Made by a program: the position numbers and the translations under genes
Shown: positions 3 through 21,066 of the stretch, piece after piece
Numbering within the stretch: the stretch's first letter is position 1
Layout of the letters: each line of letters begins with the position of its first letter
Source of the DNA: Thermococci archaeon
GTDB lineage: Archaea > Hadarchaeota > B88-G9
DNA: 26,620 bases
NCBI GenBank assembly: GCA_003660555.1
Contig: QMUK01000005.1
Coordinates: 1 to 26,620 of the forward strand
Direction of reading: 5' to 3'
Notes under the pieces: model-generated
The model's input: only the letters and a program-made list of their open reading frames with translations
The model's database searches: none
Told to the model about the DNA's origin: nothing

Positions 3-1010
3 ATAATATCTCACCCCCTCCCTTTGATACTCTTCTACCAAGATTTCCATTACTTCAGGACTTGTTTCTATTCTACCTCTTTCCAGATTTAGGTATATCT
101 CCTTTCCTTCAACTAAGTTATATCTATGGGAAATTTCCTTCATGATTTCCAATAGTTTCTCTTTCTCTGGATGTTCTATTACGCCTATTACAATCAGACC
201 ATCTTCGTTAACGTATTCGTATTCTCTTGCTATTCTGAGGGATGTTCTGATAAATCTCTTTCTCAGTTGTACTCCATCCTTAAAAGACGCTGAACAGAAG
301 TGAATGTTGAAATCTACTGATTTAATTACTTTTAACGCAGCTTCTTTGCTTCCTTGCACAGATATATCACCAATAGAGTATCCTAAGTCCTTTAGTGCTC
401 GATAGTTCGTCTCAGTAACCTCCAGCTCATTTAAGTTGAGGAAATCAGCATTTATTTCCTTCAGGGATTTGGCTAGGGAGATGAGGTCACTAACCCTGTC
501 TGGCATCGATGGTACCTCTGAACCAGAGCACAATCCAATCTCCTTTGAAATTGAAATGCTATCCAGCATGAAGTCACTTTCTACGGTTGAGTGAAATCTC
601 AATTCATCTAACCCTTTGCTGTATAGTTCCTCAATGGTATCCCTATCCAATCTCTTTGAAGTATACATATGGATGTGAAATTCGTCTCCAAACTCCCGTT
701 TAAGAATTTCCATGAAATTGATAACCCTTTCTTTCACTATTGCTGGCTCTCCACCGGTAATACCAGCTCCCAGAGCACCCATTAATTCAGCTTCTTTTAC
801 TAAATCTTCAGGAGACTTCACTGGTCTCTCATTAGCCCAAACACAGTCTTTTCCTCTTCTCATCTCAGATAGTGGGCAATATGGACAATTCCTGTCGCAA
901 ACACCAGTTACAAATAACACTAGCTTTGCTCCTTCCATGCATAGCTTGCAACCATTAGGTAGTCTTCCTTTGAAGAAATTTCCGTATTTCCTTTTGATAG
1001 ACCATCTCAT
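3..1010 (-). CDS. Radical SAM protein, COG2108 type (C-terminus cut by window edge)
   Basis: 336 codons are visible; the gene continues past the left edge. The cluster-binding motif CDRNCPYC (Cys38, Cys42, Cys45) is a CX3CX2C radical SAM motif, and GGEP follows at about residues 86-89, the usual SAM-contacting segment. An extra pair, Cys21 and Cys24 (GCKLC), precedes it. This layout (N-terminal CxxC, VLFVTG strand, CX3CX2C, later TIM-barrel strands such as EVPSMPD) matches the archaeal COG2108 family, whose substrate is not established as far as I know. Start: the ATG at 1010 overlaps the stop of the upstream gene as ATGA, so the two are probably co-transcribed. The radical SAM assignment is firm; the reaction is unknown. 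Confidence 0.85.
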   Translation of the reverse strand, partial: MRWSIKRKYGNFFKGRLPNGCKLCMEGAKLVLFVTGVCDRNCPYCPLSEMRRGKDCVWANERPVKSPEDLVKEAELMGALGAGITGGEPAIVKERVINFMEILKREFGDEFHIHMYTSKRLDRDTIEELYSKGLDELRFHSTVESDFMLDSISISKEIGLCSGSEVPSMPDRVSDLISLAKSLKEINADFLNLNELEVTETNYRALKDLGYSIGDISVQGSKEAALKVIKSVDFNIHFCSASFKDGVQLRKRFIRTSLRIAREYEYVNEDGLIVIGVIEHPEKEKLLEIMKEISHRYNLVEGKEIYLNLERGRIETSPEVMEILVEEYQREGVRYY

Positions 1011-1366
1011 GGCTCCATGTCTCTCCCAAACTTACCAATTACTACTTTTTTTATGGCCATCAATCTCTTATCTAGGAGAATCAACCTCTTAATGACACAT
1101 ACTAAGGCCTGCTTGACCTTTATCATTTCCCTTATGATGGGAGTCTCTCCCATCTCTGCTCCGATGTACCAGCTCTCAGATGAGAGTATTTCTCTGGCTA
1201 CATCTGCTATTATTTCACCCTCAGCTTTGACCCTGTTTTTTATTCCTATCAATTTTTCCTTTCTCTTCAGAGCAGATTTCAATGTTACGTATTCCTTGAA
1301 TCTGATGAGTATTGATCCCACCAGGAGTAAGAGGAGCGTCGCACACGCAATAATTGACCACTCCAA
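1007..1366 (-). CDS. Small membrane-anchored hypothetical protein
   Basis: 119 residues with a TTG start preceded by a GGGG-containing ribosome-binding stretch five bases away. Residues about 4-21 form one hydrophobic segment (IIACATLLLLLVGSILI), so the protein is probably anchored with the charged remainder in the cytoplasm. The rest is rich in Lys, Arg and Glu and looks helical. I do not recognise a family. It overlaps the downstream COG2108 radical SAM gene by four bases (ATGA), so a shared transcript is likely, but no functional link can be read from the sequence. Confidence 0.65.
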   Translation of the reverse strand: MEWSIIACATLLLLLVGSILIRFKEYVTLKSALKRKEKLIGIKNRVKAEGEIIADVAREILSSESWYIGAEMGETPIIREMIKVKQALVCVIKRLILLDKRLMAIKKVVIGKFGRDMEP

Positions 1367-1480
1367 CTCTGCCCCACGTAGTTTTAACTTAACTACTTTC
1401 TTATTTCACTTTCTGATACGTTGATATTCCCTAAGGTATCTCGAACGTATGGAAATGGAAAGAGTAAGTGTAGGTAAACA

Positions 1481-9922: not shown

Positions 9923-10660
9923 TTAGGACCTCACTGAGACCCTTAAATTCCTATTAGATCTAACGTCATCCAGAGCTAGACTCGATAGCATCACTGCATC
10001 CAATGGTACTTCTGACTCACCCACTCCTACCTTTATTGTTAGATTAAACTCTTTTTCAAATGATTTGACTAATTCTATGAATTCTACCCTGTCTAAGAAG
10101 TTGGTCACTCCCATGAAATTATCTCCTCCCATGTAGAATAGGAGAGAATCCCTATCTCTTAATTCCTCAGACAGAAAGACCTCTATCTCCCTCATTAAAG
10201 AAAAGGACTCGTATATAGAAGAAGAATCTGTTAGATTCCTGCTACTCTCTAAATCGAAGTGGGCTATCTGTATTTTACCATTTCCAAGTGAATCTACCTT
10301 CAGTTTACCTCTCCTACATGGATCCCTACTTCCACCTAGTGAATACAAAACCTCTGAAGCCCTCTTTTGTGCCTCTAACGGAGTTTCACCAGATGAGACT
10401 CCCATGCTAACTGTGAACGGATAAGTCGAACTGATCTGTTCCATGAAGGAATAGTGCTCCCTCTCTCCGATTCCGTTGCTCAATGCTAAAAGGCTATCCT
10501 CTCTGGCCCTAAAGACGAATCCTCCATGGGTAGAGAAGAGAGTCTGTATGTCCAGATAAAGTCTAGATTGTATTATTTGCAAGTCACTTTCTCTCTTGTG
10601 TTTCGGTTTGACAGTCCAAGGCCCGTAGTCATCTATTTGTATTGCAGTGAACTGTAGCAT
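9923..10660 (-). CDS. arfA: GTP cyclohydrolase III
   Basis: Converts GTP to the formylated pyrimidine FAPy, the first step toward riboflavin and coenzyme F420 in archaea. The start FTAIQIDDYGPWTVKPKHKR matches the family N-terminus closely, followed by SDLQIIQSRLY, YPFTVSMGVSSGETPLEAQKRA, IQIAHFD and the cyclase-like FYMGGDNFMG motif near the C-terminal domain. 245 residues, close to the ~250-270 of known members. The ATG at 10660 is chosen because the family begins there and a TATA box lies 28 bp upstream, implying a leaderless mRNA; a longer in-frame opening to 10777 would overlap the divergent gene. It suggests the host makes flavin or F420 de novo. Confidence 0.92.
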   Translation of the reverse strand: MLQFTAIQIDDYGPWTVKPKHKRESDLQIIQSRLYLDIQTLFSTHGGFVFRAREDSLLALSNGIGEREHYSFMEQISSTYPFTVSMGVSSGETPLEAQKRASEVLYSLGGSRDPCRRGKLKVDSLGNGKIQIAHFDLESSRNLTDSSSIYESFSLMREIEVFLSEELRDRDSLLFYMGGDNFMGVTNFLDRVEFIELVKSFEKEFNLTIKVGVGESEVPLDAVMLSSLALDDVRSNRNLRVSVRS

Positions 10661-10683
10661 GGGCTTACTTTCGGGAAAGAGAC

Positions 10684-10692
10684 TTAAATATA
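10684..10692. promoter_or_regulatory. Shared TATA element for divergent gch3 and methylthiotransferase genes
   Basis: TTAAATATA (TATATTTAA on the other strand) is centred 28 bp from the ATG at 10660 and 23 bp from the GTG at 10711. No other TATA candidate is seen in the 50-bp gap, so one element may serve both directions. Confidence 0.5.
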
Positions 10693-10710
10693 TCTCGAGG
10701 ATGGAGGGGT

Positions 10711-11937
10711 GTGAAGGTCTTCTTGAAGGTATTCGGTTGCACGATGAATAAAGTCGATGCCCAACTAATAGAATCACTAGCCAAGGCAGGAGGACACGAA
10801 GTAGTTCACAGTGAAGACGAAGCAGACCTAATTGTAATAAATTCGTGCGTGGTAAGAGAAGAAAGCGAGAAAAAAGCTCTCAGATACCTAGAAAGGATAA
10901 AGAAATGTTACAATGGGAAGAGAGTCATATTGACGGGTTGCCTACCATCAGCACTTCCGGAATTGGTTAGAGATACCGAGACTGTAAAACTGGACGAATT
11001 AGAGAAGGCATTTTCGAAGCTGTTCGGAGTCAAAGAAGCTAAAGTAGAGAGAGAAGTGAACTCGATTTCTCACCCAGTCCCTATAGCTAGGGGATGCTTA
11101 GGTAATTGTTCGTATTGCATAGTTAAGCTAGCTAGAGGAAGACTCAGGAGTTCTCCGATGGATGAAGTCATTAGCGAAGTAGAGAGGGCCTTATCGAGAG
11201 GGGCAAAAGAAATCCTATTGACTGCAGAAGACACAGCAGCATACGGCTTAGATTTAGGGGAGAATCTTCCGAGCCTATTGAGAGAGATGCTATCAACAAT
11301 AGAGGAAGAGGAGTTCAGAATCAGAATTGGAATGATGACTCCAGGTTTAGCGAAGAGGATATACAGGGATCTATCTGAGATCTACGAGGATCCGAGGGTA
11401 TACAAATTCCTACACCTGCCACTCCAGAGTGGAGACGATGGGATATTAAGAAAGATGAGGAGGAACTACTCTGTAAAGGACTATTTGGAGATAGTCAAGC
11501 ATTTCAGGAGAAAATTCCCTGAGCTAAATCTAGCTACGGACATAATAGTGGGATTTCCAGGAGAAGGAGCCGAGGAATTCTCCAGAACTTTAGAAGCTTT
11601 GATGAAGTCAGAACCCGATAAAGTTCACGTGGCTAGATACTCACCTAGACCAAAAACTGAGGCCTATGAAATGAAACCTCCACCAGGAAGAGTAATTAAG
11701 AGTAGATCTAGGATCTTGCACAATCTAAGGATGAACTTAGGACTAAAGAGAAACTCCATGCTACTAGGAGAAAGATTTGAAGTACTTCTCACTTCCAAAG
11801 GAAAGAAAGGGGGACTAATAGGGAGAGCTCCGAACTACAAGCAAGTGATCCTAAGAGAAGGAGCTCTAGGAGAATTTTCGAGAGTCGAAGTAGTGGGATA
11901 CACCCCAACTTATCTGAAGGGTGTCAGGGTTGAGTGA
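10711..11937 (+). CDS. tRNA t6A37 methylthiotransferase (archaeal/CDKAL1 type)
   Basis: Radical SAM enzyme predicted to convert t6A to ms2t6A at position 37 of tRNAs reading ANN codons. 408 residues with the full family architecture. The MTTase domain has three cluster cysteines (Cys10 in FGCTMN, Cys46 in INSCVV, Cys77 in TGCLP). The radical SAM motif is ARGCLGNCSYCIVKLARGRL (Cys129, Cys133, Cys136), followed by HLPLQSGDD and DIIVGFPGE. The C-terminal TRAM-like segment includes GERFEVLLTSKG. Start: the GTG at 10711 sits three bases after GGAGG and about 23 bp from a TATA box, so the leader is very short. The following methyltransferase gene overlaps its stop region. Confidence 0.93.
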   Translation: MKVFLKVFGCTMNKVDAQLIESLAKAGGHEVVHSEDEADLIVINSCVVREESEKKALRYLERIKKCYNGKRVILTGCLPSALPELVRDTETVKLDELEKAFSKLFGVKEAKVEREVNSISHPVPIARGCLGNCSYCIVKLARGRLRSSPMDEVISEVERALSRGAKEILLTAEDTAAYGLDLGENLPSLLREMLSTIEEEEFRIRIGMMTPGLAKRIYRDLSEIYEDPRVYKFLHLPLQSGDDGILRKMRRNYSVKDYLEIVKHFRRKFPELNLATDIIVGFPGEGAEEFSRTLEALMKSEPDKVHVARYSPRPKTEAYEMKPPPGRVIKSRSRILHNLRMNLGLKRNSMLLGERFEVLLTSKGKKGGLIGRAPNYKQVILREGALGEFSRVEVVGYTPTYLKGVRVE

Positions 11938-16623: not shown

Positions 16624-16700
16624 TGGAGCCCCGGGCGGGATTCGAACCCGCGACCTGGTGATTACAAGTCACCCGCTCTACCGGGCTGAGCTACCGGGGC
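16624..16700 (-). tRNA. tRNA-Thr (anticodon TGT)
   Basis: Minus strand. The acceptor GCCCCGG pairs with CCGGGGC. The D arm is GCTC/GAGC. The anticodon stem GGTGA/TCACC encloses CTTGTAA, with anticodon TGT at 16666-16664. The T arm is GCGGG TTCGAAT CCCGC. The discriminator is T, followed by an encoded CCA (16626-16624). It reads ACA/ACG threonine codons. Its first ten bases are also the last ten of pgk. Confidence 0.97.
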
Positions 16701-17899
16701 TCGTATTTGTTGAGGACTTCTATCCCTGGAAGGGGAACTCCTGATAAGAGTGTGGTACTAGCTCCCCCTCCTGTACTAACGTGATTTATTCTTTTCTCTA
16801 GCCCGAGCATTTTCACTGCAGCTACTAGATGCCCCCCTCCTATTACAGTAAAACCCTCGGTCCTCGCCATAGCCCTCAGGATCATTTCAGTCCCTATCGC
16901 AAATTGTGGGACTTCAAACATCCCTGCAGGACCGTTAGCCACTATCGTCTTAGAGCTCATGATCTCCTCTGAGTACTTCTCAGCAGTGCCTATTCCTATG
17001 TCTAGTATTCTACCTTTGGGTGGAACCTCCTTAATTGAGATATCGATTCTTTCTCCTCCAATTTCAACACCGAAGTCCTCCGGAAGTACTATTTTTTCCT
17101 TAAATCTACTGAGAATACTTCTAGCTTTTTCTATTAGGGTATTGTCCTTCTTTTTTATCAATTCTTCGTTCTCCTTACCTAGATTCACTCCCTTGGCCAA
17201 GAGGAATAAGTTAGCCACTAACCCAGTAAGCAGTACTTTATCGGCAATTCCCCTCTCTAGTGAGTTCTCTATGGTATTGAGAGCATCTTCTAATTTAGCT
17301 CCACCCAGAACGAATATAGATGGTCTACCTGGGTCCCTGAGCCTTTCCACTAGGGAATGATATTCCTTTTCCATGAGCCTACCTGCATAGGACGGGATGA
17401 CCGGAGGAAACCCTATTATGGAGGCGTGTGGCCTATGGGCAGCGGCGAAGGCATCGTTTACGTATACATCGGAAACTCTAGAGAGCTTTCTCACCATGAC
17501 ACATCTAGAGTGTTCCTCTGGACTCCGCTTCAAAGTCTCCTCAGAATAGAATCTAACGTTTTCCAACATTATTGCATCACCTTCATCCAAGGAAACTATG
17601 GATTCCCTCGCGTATTTACCGAAAATGTCTTCTATGTACTCTATTTCGAATCCCAGCAATTTAGAGAAGAGCACAGCGTGCTTCTTTGTAGTGGTGAAGT
17701 CTCTAGCGCCAGGTCTGCTTTGATGAGCCATGATTACTACCTTGGCCCTCTTCTCCAATAACTCTCTGATGGTGGGCAAGTGTGATCGAAATCTCTCGTC
17801 GTCGAGTATTTCACCAGTTTCTGGATTTATGGGAGAATTCACGTCAACTCTTAGAATAACGACTTTTCCTTTTGGATCTAGGTGATCCAGAGTCTTCAA
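16691..17899 (-). CDS. pgk: Phosphoglycerate kinase
   Basis: Interconverts 1,3-bisphosphoglycerate plus ADP and 3-phosphoglycerate plus ATP. 402 residues, standard for archaea. Visible signatures: VVILRVDVNSPIN at the N-terminus, MAHQSRPG, ENVRFYSEE, VYVNDAFAAAHRPHAS (substrate-binding basic patch), FVLGGAKLEDAL (nucleotide domain), ANGPAGMFE, VIGGGHLVAAV and VSTGGGASTTLLSG. The TTG start has an AGGGGG site a few bases upstream, and AT-rich TATA-like sequence lies near 17925-17940. The last codons (GAG CCC CGG TAG) lie inside the tRNA-Thr gene, so tRNA 5' processing would cut the message before its stop codon. tpiA lies upstream on the same strand. Confidence 0.96.
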   Translation of the reverse strand: MKTLDHLDPKGKVVILRVDVNSPINPETGEILDDERFRSHLPTIRELLEKRAKVVIMAHQSRPGARDFTTTKKHAVLFSKLLGFEIEYIEDIFGKYARESIVSLDEGDAIMLENVRFYSEETLKRSPEEHSRCVMVRKLSRVSDVYVNDAFAAAHRPHASIIGFPPVIPSYAGRLMEKEYHSLVERLRDPGRPSIFVLGGAKLEDALNTIENSLERGIADKVLLTGLVANLFLLAKGVNLGKENEELIKKKDNTLIEKARSILSRFKEKIVLPEDFGVEIGGERIDISIKEVPPKGRILDIGIGTAEKYSEEIMSSKTIVANGPAGMFEVPQFAIGTEMILRAMARTEGFTVIGGGHLVAAVKMLGLEKRINHVSTGGGASTTLLSGVPLPGIEVLNKYEPR

Positions 17900-18633: not shown

Positions 18634-19677
18634 TCACCATATCAGCTCGGATTCCCTATTGGTTTCCAATCCCCTTTTTATTTCAAGGGCAATTCTCCTA
18701 CCTGTGCTCATTGGCTCGTTGTATTTCACCCAGGTGTAGGGGGAGCCCCAGACGTATAAAGAGGTCCCTGCAACGATTCTGGCCGATATCTCAAAGACGT
18801 AGAATTCCAATCCATCGGTGCATACAGTCTCTAGACAGAATGGACCTATCATCCCTGGGTAGAATAACTCCTTAGATTTTTTGACCACTCTCTCCCCCAT
18901 TTCAAAAACCTCTGGCAGAAGGGACTCTCTCAGAATCACAGGTATATTTCCAGTGACAACGTAAGTGGGCGAGAAGTATTTCTCCCAGTCCGGAATTCTG
19001 GTCAAACCATCTACGTTGCTCTCATATCTTATGTCGGAACCAGTGAACTCTATCTCGTCATTTAACGGAGAATAGAAGTAATGTAGGTAAAATCTAGTCC
19101 CCACTACATATTCCTGGATTACGTGAGGCTCTTTCTCCCTACCTCTTATTTTGTCCCAGTACTCCTCCTCGCTACTTGCTAGGAAGAAGTCCCTACCACC
19201 CTTTGCGCCGAAGAACTTGACTATCACAGGACCATCAATTTCATCAGGTTTTACTTCTCTCGGCATTTTCAATCCAGAAGACGTCAACCATTCTCTTTCC
19301 TTTCTTCTATCTGATTCCCATTCCAATACTAACCTATTTCCAAAGCATGGAACCTCTAACTTATCCAATATGTTTTTTGGGCCTATGTATTCTACGAAAG
19401 AACCGTGAGGGATTAACACGCAGTTTCTCTCTATCAATTCGTCCTGAACTTCACTTGAAAGTATGTCTTTGAAATTTTCTACGAATAAAGTAAAGTTAGC
19501 CACATTGAAATTTCTATAGAGCTTCTCTCTATCCTTTGTTGTTATTAAAAGGGTGTCAAATCCTTCTTGCCTTGCACCGTGCAGTATTTGCAGGGCGGAG
19601 TGAGACGCTATAGTTCCTATGGTGATCTCTCCTCCATAGGACTCGAGTATCTCTTTTATCCTCTCTTGGCTTATCAA
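18634..19677 (-). CDS. purP: Formate-dependent FAICAR synthetase PurP
   Basis: ATP-grasp enzyme that formylates AICAR with free formate in archaeal purine synthesis. 347 residues. The N-terminus TIGTIASHSALQILHGARQE carries the family's SHSALQI signature, followed by LIPHGSFVEYIG, FGNRLVLEWESDRRKE, VIVKFFGAKGGRDFF (ATP-grasp glycine loop), IQEYVVGTRFYLHYFYSP, GPFCLETVCTDG and YVFEISARIVAGTSLYVWGSPY (metal-binding end). The TTG start has GGGGAG four bases upstream. PurP families include paralogues of uncertain activity, so the exact step is probable rather than certain. Its stop lies six bases before the preferred tpiA start. Confidence 0.9.
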   Translation of the reverse strand: MISQERIKEILESYGGEITIGTIASHSALQILHGARQEGFDTLLITTKDREKLYRNFNVANFTLFVENFKDILSSEVQDELIERNCVLIPHGSFVEYIGPKNILDKLEVPCFGNRLVLEWESDRRKEREWLTSSGLKMPREVKPDEIDGPVIVKFFGAKGGRDFFLASSEEEYWDKIRGREKEPHVIQEYVVGTRFYLHYFYSPLNDEIEFTGSDIRYESNVDGLTRIPDWEKYFSPTYVVTGNIPVILRESLLPEVFEMGERVVKKSKELFYPGMIGPFCLETVCTDGLEFYVFEISARIVAGTSLYVWGSPYTWVKYNEPMSTGRRIALEIKRGLETNRESELIW

Positions 19678-19916: not shown

Positions 19917-19966
19917 GTAATTTTTATCTCCGAAACACCTAGGTAAATTTTTCCATGGTGATTTGC

Positions 19967-20325
19967 ATGAAGGCAATAGTTTGTGGAAGCTCATCCCACC
20001 TAAAAGAGCTGAGAAAAGCCCAGGAATTTTTATCAGAGTTGGGTTATGAGGTGATAGACCAATTTGACTTAAATTACACTGGAAAATTATTTTCTCCAAG
20101 AGATTTGGAAGAAATACACTCGATAGTGAGACATGACATATCTAAAGTATTGGAGGCAGATATAGTGTTTTTGTTAGCCGAAAACCCCTCTTGGGGAGCG
20201 GCCATTGAGGCAATGATAGCGAAACAACTAGGAAAAAAGTCGTACTCATGCTAAAGAAGGAAAGGAGAAGAGAACTAGGAAGTCCATGGCCTTTCGTAAT
20301 TTCAGATGAAATCCTTGAGTATTAG
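19967..20325 (+). CDS. Nucleoside 2-deoxyribosyltransferase-like protein, interrupted by a -1 frameshift
   Basis: Frame 0 from the ATG at 19967 (GGTGAT four bases upstream) gives KAIVCGSSSHLKELRKAQEF, then LFSPRDLEEIHSIV, EADIVFLLAE and NPSWGAAIEAMIAKQLGKK, and stops after three more codons at about 20254. The P-loop-like start and the GxxxExxxA pattern (WGAAIEAMIA, candidate catalytic Glu81) resemble 2-deoxyribosyltransferase/DUF4406-type nucleotide enzymes. In the -1 frame the protein continues naturally as VVLMLKKERRRELGSPWPFV and ends ISDEILEY at 20325, for 119 residues in total. The switch point is A AAA AAG (20233-20239). The full product needs programmed slippage, an assembly correction, or an ancestral extra A. 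The 3' end overlaps the convergent presenilin-like gene. Confidence 0.7.
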
Positions 20326-21066
20326 GCTTAGTATACATCCGGAAGCGAGACCGGGAATTGCCGGCAATCCCCTTCTGTATCTGTTCAGGTAGACTGTTAC
20401 TAGAAGTCCAATCAAAGACAGGAACATGGCTAATAGAGAGCACTTCAGCCCACAGTACATTCTCATGGAGACGAAGAAAGAGGCAGGAAAAACTAGGTCT
20501 CCACCTCCTAAGCCAGCTACGTCATCTCCAATGGGGATCAGAAAAGCGGGAACAAATCCACTTCGTTCTCTCATTTCTTCGAACATGTATATCATGTGCT
20601 TGGTCCAGAACACTGCTATGACGTCGTATATTGCTAGGAGGACCAGTAGTACTGTGAGCACACCTATGCTGAACATCACACCTAGGTTTAGGCTTATTCC
20701 AACCAAAGCGAGCAATAAGCCAGTGTTACTCAAAACTAGGTTGAATTTCCTAACAGTTAAAATCCCGACGATTATGGATAAAATTGAACTAATACTTAAA
20801 TCCAAACCTAAGAACAAACTCAGTAGAAGGAAGACACCGACTGAGATGGCAAAGAAGTATAGAACCCTTATGGAGGAGGGGAACTTACGCATCAGATATA
20901 TAGTGATTGCTGTGACTACCAATATCAACACGAGCACGTTCACGGCCTGACTCAAGTCGTCGGAAGTCTCCATTCCACTTGGCACCTCCTCCGGAGCCAG
21001 AGAGATAGAGAGAATGGATCCAGAAATCCAAAGAAGTATTAGGAGGAAGTCAGCTCTCATCCTCAT
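20302..21066 (-). CDS. Presenilin/signal-peptide-peptidase-like intramembrane aspartyl protease
   Basis: 254 residues with about nine hydrophobic segments, a typical archaeal presenilin homologue. The two catalytic aspartates are present: Asp148 in LLAIYDVIAVF and Asp190 in VAGLGGGDLVFPA. The C-terminal PAL motif position reads LPAIPGLASG, i.e. PAI rather than PAL. Such enzymes cut transmembrane helices within the membrane. The middle Gly of the GxGD motif is retained as GGGD. The ATG at 21066 has GGGG six bases upstream. It converges with the frameshifted gene and diverges from a winged-helix gene. Confidence 0.88.
   Translation of the reverse strand: MRMRADFLLILLWISGSILSISLAPEEVPSGMETSDDLSQAVNVLVLILVVTAITIYLMRKFPSSIRVLYFFAISVGVFLLLSLFLGLDLSISSILSIIVGILTVRKFNLVLSNTGLLLALVGISLNLGVMFSIGVLTVLLVLLAIYDVIAVFWTKHMIYMFEEMRERSGFVPAFLIPIGDDVAGLGGGDLVFPASFFVSMRMYCGLKCSLLAMFLSLIGLLVTVYLNRYRRGLPAIPGLASGCILSLILKDFI

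Follow-up and report, generated by a model that had tools for sequence, protein, structure and literature searches.

Probable one-base loss at an A_AAA_AAG heptamer in a nucleoside deoxyribosyltransferase-like gene of a Hadarchaeota genome

A gene on contig C5 of a draft Hadarchaeota genome changes reading frame at A_AAA_AAG, a heptamer that, with its phase, is identical to the one in E. coli dnaX. The question raised by this locus is whether the break is a programmed −1 frameshift site or the trace of a lost base. The stretch analysed, referred to here as the window, is 26,620 nucleotides in length. The best explanation, with a probability of about 0.86, is a recent one-base deletion, or an assembly or sequencing error, in the A-run of a stand-alone nucleoside deoxyribosyltransferase-like gene.

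The break site and its reading frames

The heptamer lies at positions 20233 to 20239 of the forward strand, at the frame break and in the −1 phase X_XXY_YYZ, with its first A as the third base of a GGA codon. Direct reading of the sequence confirms what the first-pass annotation had stated of its position and phase. Near the break, frame 0 from the ATG at 19967 reads CAA CTA GGA AAA AAG TCG TAC TCA TGC TAA, and 12 bases separate the heptamer from the frame-0 stop (TAA 20252-20254). Re-reading in the −1 frame past the heptamer gives KKVVLMLKKERRRELGSPWPFVISDEILEY, followed by TAG at 20323-20325. This frame is open for 28 further codons after the break, which agrees with the 28-residue continuation first described. 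The features of the locus, together with one control, are as follows.

19956..19963, forward strand: Shine-Dalgarno-like TGGTGATT, read directly and likened to archaeal Shine-Dalgarno sequences
19967..20254, forward strand: frame-0 ORF, the N-terminal part of a nucleoside deoxyribosyltransferase-like domain, with an unrelated SYSC tail at its end
20233..20239, forward strand: A_AAA_AAG heptamer in −1 phase at the frame break
20239..20325, forward strand: −1 continuation VVLMLKKERRRELGSPWPFVISDEILEY, 28 codons and TAG, with the family's next core strand and invariant SPW
20248..20254, forward strand: ATGCTAA, where an ATG in the −1 frame runs into the frame-0 stop and could in theory restart translation to give a 25-residue peptide
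20302..21066, reverse strand: convergent SPP/presenilin-like membrane protease gene, sharing at its 3' end the 24 terminal bases of the −1 continuation
17150..17156, reverse strand: control, A_AAA_AAG in the same phase inside an uninterrupted pgk (16691-17899, reverse strand)

Just upstream of the ATG at 19967, TGGTGATT is plausibly an archaeal Shine-Dalgarno sequence. The frame-0 product is 95 residues long from this ATG and 99 residues long from the ATG at 19955, and the joined product has 119 residues. The 99-residue length previously given for a start at 19967 thus requires the ATG at 19955; the accompanying statement that this reading is incomplete is borne out by homology.

The joined protein and its homologues

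Searching related genomes and one order, the Archaeoglobales-type genomes, turned up unbroken relatives that are 31–45% identical to the joined 119-residue sequence. The homology covers residues 1 to 119, with the break at residue 91. Ten unbroken homologues run through the junction ungapped, and all have the invariant SPW that the −1 part encodes at positions 106-108, so the continuation is beyond chance. The strand-forming segment that follows GK is also in the −1 part. These alignments support the −1 frame as the carrier of the true C-terminus. Because the family sequence goes on in the −1 frame, where the Ser-Pro-Trp of the unbroken relatives is found, the joined protein can be taken as the ancestral form, a Rossmann-like protein of the nucleoside deoxyribosyltransferase kind.

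Joining the two parts raises the PF05014 score from 17.6 to 24.0 bits (curated cut-off 28.8) and the PF14359 score from 20.3 to 22.8 bits (cut-off 22). Homologues of the joined protein pass PF05014 with 29.3, 29.0, and 34.7 bits. The S-x-G-x-x-x-E motif (S75-G77-E81) is invariant in the alignment and is kept in the window protein. Compared with its homologues, the joined protein has also kept the catalytic-type Glu (E81), D57, A64-D65, G89-K90, and SPW. The family is nucleoside 2-deoxyribosyltransferase-like (PF05014, PF14359), and the window protein retains the motif, D57, and D65.

In the model of a relative (mean pLDDT 89), a strand at 91-95, a helix at 104-108, a strand at 111-113, and a helix at 116-128 all lie past the break point. 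The 95-residue frame-0 product folded alone shows only three strands at lower confidence, which is weak evidence as it comes from a single sequence. The frame-0 product is an incomplete domain without the last core strands. The earlier claim that it lacks the real C-terminus is upheld by the alignment and by the model of the relative.

Origin of the frame break

The A-run at the break is one A too short to keep the frame. The break falls exactly in this run, and one added base restores the family reading with the expected spacing. The alignment implies an ancestral GGA AAA AAA GTC (Gly-Lys-Lys-Val), with a run that was presumably one A longer, a base count drawn from distant relatives (31–45% identity). 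The proposed change is GG-A7-G to GG-A6-G, a net loss of one base, which would have arisen either by a recent replication-slippage mutation or as an assembly or sequencing error in a 150-contig draft. Replication slippage, sequencing error, and slippage during expression all favour A-runs. The event is probably recent, since the −1 part shows no further damage. A ribosome reading the gene as written would terminate at TAA 20252 and release a 95-residue product, which ends short of the final core strands in the Rossmann-like sheet and is probably non-functional.

The phase of the heptamer follows from the same loss. Removing one A from GGA AAA AAA GTC leaves GGA AAA AAG TCG and with it, automatically, the X_XXY_YYZ phase; the phasing therefore lends programming no support beyond the break itself. 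As the loss of one A forces a phased heptamer, nothing coincidental is left to explain. This is a general trap: a one-base loss from A7 before G in such a phase always gives a textbook slippery heptamer. With the homologues unbroken and the phase following from the loss, sequencing error and one-base deletion, listed as alternatives in the first-pass annotation, become the better readings. For singleton frame transitions validated by BLASTp, the authors of GeneTack chiefly blame sequencing error (PMC3711429).

The heptamer is also unremarkable in number. The window holds seven copies against 7.7 expected, without enrichment, and the copy in pgk (17156-17150) has the same phase in an uninterrupted gene. 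Elsewhere the genome was sampled in stretches amounting to 684 kb, about 53% of the assembly. In these 684 kb, the heptamer in the same phase has 34 occurrences among the 539 genes with 150 residues or more, and 40 among all called ORFs with the break site counted in. These 34 copies compare with 79 expected from codon shuffling, so the heptamer is depleted in coding sequence. Avoidance of slippage was considered as the reason and rejected: A6, T6, and G6 show depletion in almost every phase, the one exception being A6G in phase 0, which points mainly to homopolymer avoidance.

The assembly has 150 contigs and 1.30 Mb and is an estimated 91% complete. None of 275 gene pairs compared by tblastn with the proteins of a genome of the same phylum showed a frame break, in a test that caught simulated deletions in about 40–50% of genes. 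Given this detection rate, a break rate of a few percent is still compatible with the result. Six-A homopolymers near ORF ends show no excess over the comparison genome. The assembly is not riddled with indels, which argues against a high rate of error; an isolated event, be it an error or a recent mutation, is compatible with this. Two frame breaks from a first scan of the draft genome were rejected as antisense shadow ORFs full of stops. Separately, at 711-1424 (forward strand) of the window, two overlapping ORFs join in another frame at a T7 run, and may represent either antisense shadow ORFs or another break. A/T runs stop sharply at seven in 684 kb of coding and intergenic sequence from the window genome (85 of length 7, one of at least 8), compared with 93 of length 7 and 25 of at least 8 in 800 kb of the same-phylum genome. 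This abrupt stop could be biology or an assembly effect.

A programmed −1 frameshift of the dnaX type, in which two lysine tRNAs slip on A_AAA_AAG and a fraction of ribosomes make the 119-residue protein, is unlikely. The heptamer sits in the correct phase at the frame switch, the slip product matches the family sequence exactly, and the −1 part is undamaged. Archaeal genes that shift by −1 on A-runs have been described before, namely the magnesium chelatase overlap with A_AAA_AAR (PMC5009743) and fucA1 with A_AAA_AAT (PMC8211752). Against these points, neither the heptamer nor the break is conserved. AAAAAAG is present at the junction in none of the nine homologues with printed junction codons, which read, for example, GGT AAG CCC GTC, GGA AAA GTT GTT, or GGT AAA AAA GTA. 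The frame break is absent from every full-length homologue found, and the sole short match (L030) ends where its contig ends. The first-pass annotation had held that unbroken orthologues without the heptamer would speak against programming, and every full-length homologue, each of them distant (31–45% identity), is of this kind. At the DNA level no ortholog was found in 27 other genomes of the phylum, short chance matches aside. No relative above about 45% identity was found, nor a copy from the same species or genus, and a first contig scan, a viral-contig scan, and a phage search yielded nothing. Protein matches from the same phylum were considered as close orthologues and rejected as remote paralogues. 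On these alignments, the lack of conservation of break and heptamer is clear, though at long range.

The tRNA genes and the flanking sequence also count against programming. One review puts the high shiftiness of A_AAA_AAG in E. coli down to a sole tRNA-Lys that pairs weakly with AAG, and offers the two lysine tRNAs of Thermus as a possible reason for its use of polymerase slippage in place of ribosomal slippage (PMC5009743). Among 42 tRNA matches in the window genome are lysine tRNA genes with anticodons TTT (contig C3) and CTT (contig C42), so the genome departs from the E. coli mechanism, in which one tRNA-Lys(UUU) reads both AAA and AAG; tRNA-Lys(CUU) is encoded as well. Downstream RNA, where a stimulatory structure would be expected 5-9 nt after the site, folds no better than shuffled sequence in a test of pseudoknot-free structures: the energy of 20240-20320 is −11.4 kcal/mol, less stable than that of most shuffles (z +1.26), and z is +0.75 for 20244-20300. 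No Shine-Dalgarno-like element occurs 8-16 nucleotides upstream, where GCAATGATAGCGAAACAACTAGG before the heptamer holds only an AGG that directly adjoins it. The same phased heptamer is harmless in pgk and in dozens of other genes. The short product lacks a core strand, and the two-product logic of dnaX is not evident here.

Comparison with known systems places the window gene apart from each. In dnaX the shift leads to a quick stop and a shorter functional product, and is aided by an upstream Shine-Dalgarno sequence and a downstream stem-loop. In the window gene the −1 frame instead holds the family C-terminus, and such stimulators were not found. The E. coli gene works with a sole tRNA-Lys (PMC5009743), while the window genome also encodes tRNA-Lys(CUU). 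The fucA1 gene of Saccharolobus solfataricus is closer, being archaeal and broken at an A-run with the remainder of its domain in the −1 frame, and the run in its unbroken homologues likewise differs by one base (PMC8211752). Unlike the window gene, fucA1 has a putative stem-loop, tandem rare codons, a break common to two strains, and a demonstrated full-length product. The magnesium chelatase overlap of Methanocaldococcus and Methanococcus has the same type of heptamer, which is under purifying selection there (PMC5009743) and unconserved in the window gene. Likewise improbable is a lineage-specific programmed −1 shift that controls the amount of the nucleoside deoxyribosyltransferase-like protein with both lysine tRNAs and no visible stimulators. 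If programmed, the site would belong to a type with archaeal precedents, would lengthen the still very short list of recoded archaeal genes, and would challenge the view that a CUU-reading tRNA-Lys blocks slippage of the dnaX type.

It is improbable that the gene is a real recent frameshift mutant in which unselected slippage of the ribosome or RNA polymerase on the A-run yields a little full-length protein. The intact −1 part would suit such a rescue, and slippage that bypasses indels on homonucleotide runs is reported to occur sporadically (PMC3812077). However, six A's are short for transcriptional slippage, programmed transcriptional realignment being listed at n > 7 (PMC3711429), and both lysine tRNAs are present. 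Least credible of all is a split gene, in which ribosomes that stop at TAA 20252 start again at the overlapping ATG 20248 (ATGCTAA) and make the C-terminal 25 residues separately: start and stop do overlap, but the second ORF would be just 25 codons long, with its start within the fourth core strand, no Shine-Dalgarno-like element lies at a normal distance, and all relatives are single-chain.

As an indel, the preferred one-base loss is a matter of annotation only, and the gene should be marked as frameshifted with a joined product of 119 residues.

Family context and neighbouring genes

Archaeoglobaceae-type genomes carry this domain as a fusion with a QueF-like one (PF14489, E 4e-19 to 7e-18). 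The full-length fusion ORFs at Archaeoglobaceae-type loci are as follows.

L015:1123-1833, reverse strand: full-length fusion ORF
L017:1501-2214, forward strand: full-length fusion ORF
L020:1138-1845, reverse strand: full-length fusion ORF

Relatives of the fusion in the PDB include QueF and the archaeosine synthase QueF-Like, and from this domain pairing the fusion can reasonably be given a putative role in the metabolism of 7-deazaguanine or archaeosine. The fused deoxyribosyltransferase-like domain may serve archaeosine metabolism as a partner for salvage or base exchange; no paper that brings these subjects together turned up in the literature searched. Compared with these fusions and with nucleoside deoxyribosyltransferase-like and DUF4406 proteins, the window gene has no QueF-like half, misses the last helix, and breaks at residue 91. 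Its end lies inside the convergent gene.

Neither QueF nor TGT (tRNA-guanine transglycosylase, PF01702) was found in the 91% complete assembly, although 20 of the phylum's 28 genomes have TGT. Archaeosine has possibly been lost in the window genome. The absence of both fits a gene that is without its context and tolerates damage, though it is suggestive only. Two neighbours, at 18634-19677 and 9923-10777 (both reverse strand), match PurP-type DUF1297/DUF1246 and GTP cyclohydrolase III, and agree with an archaeal origin.
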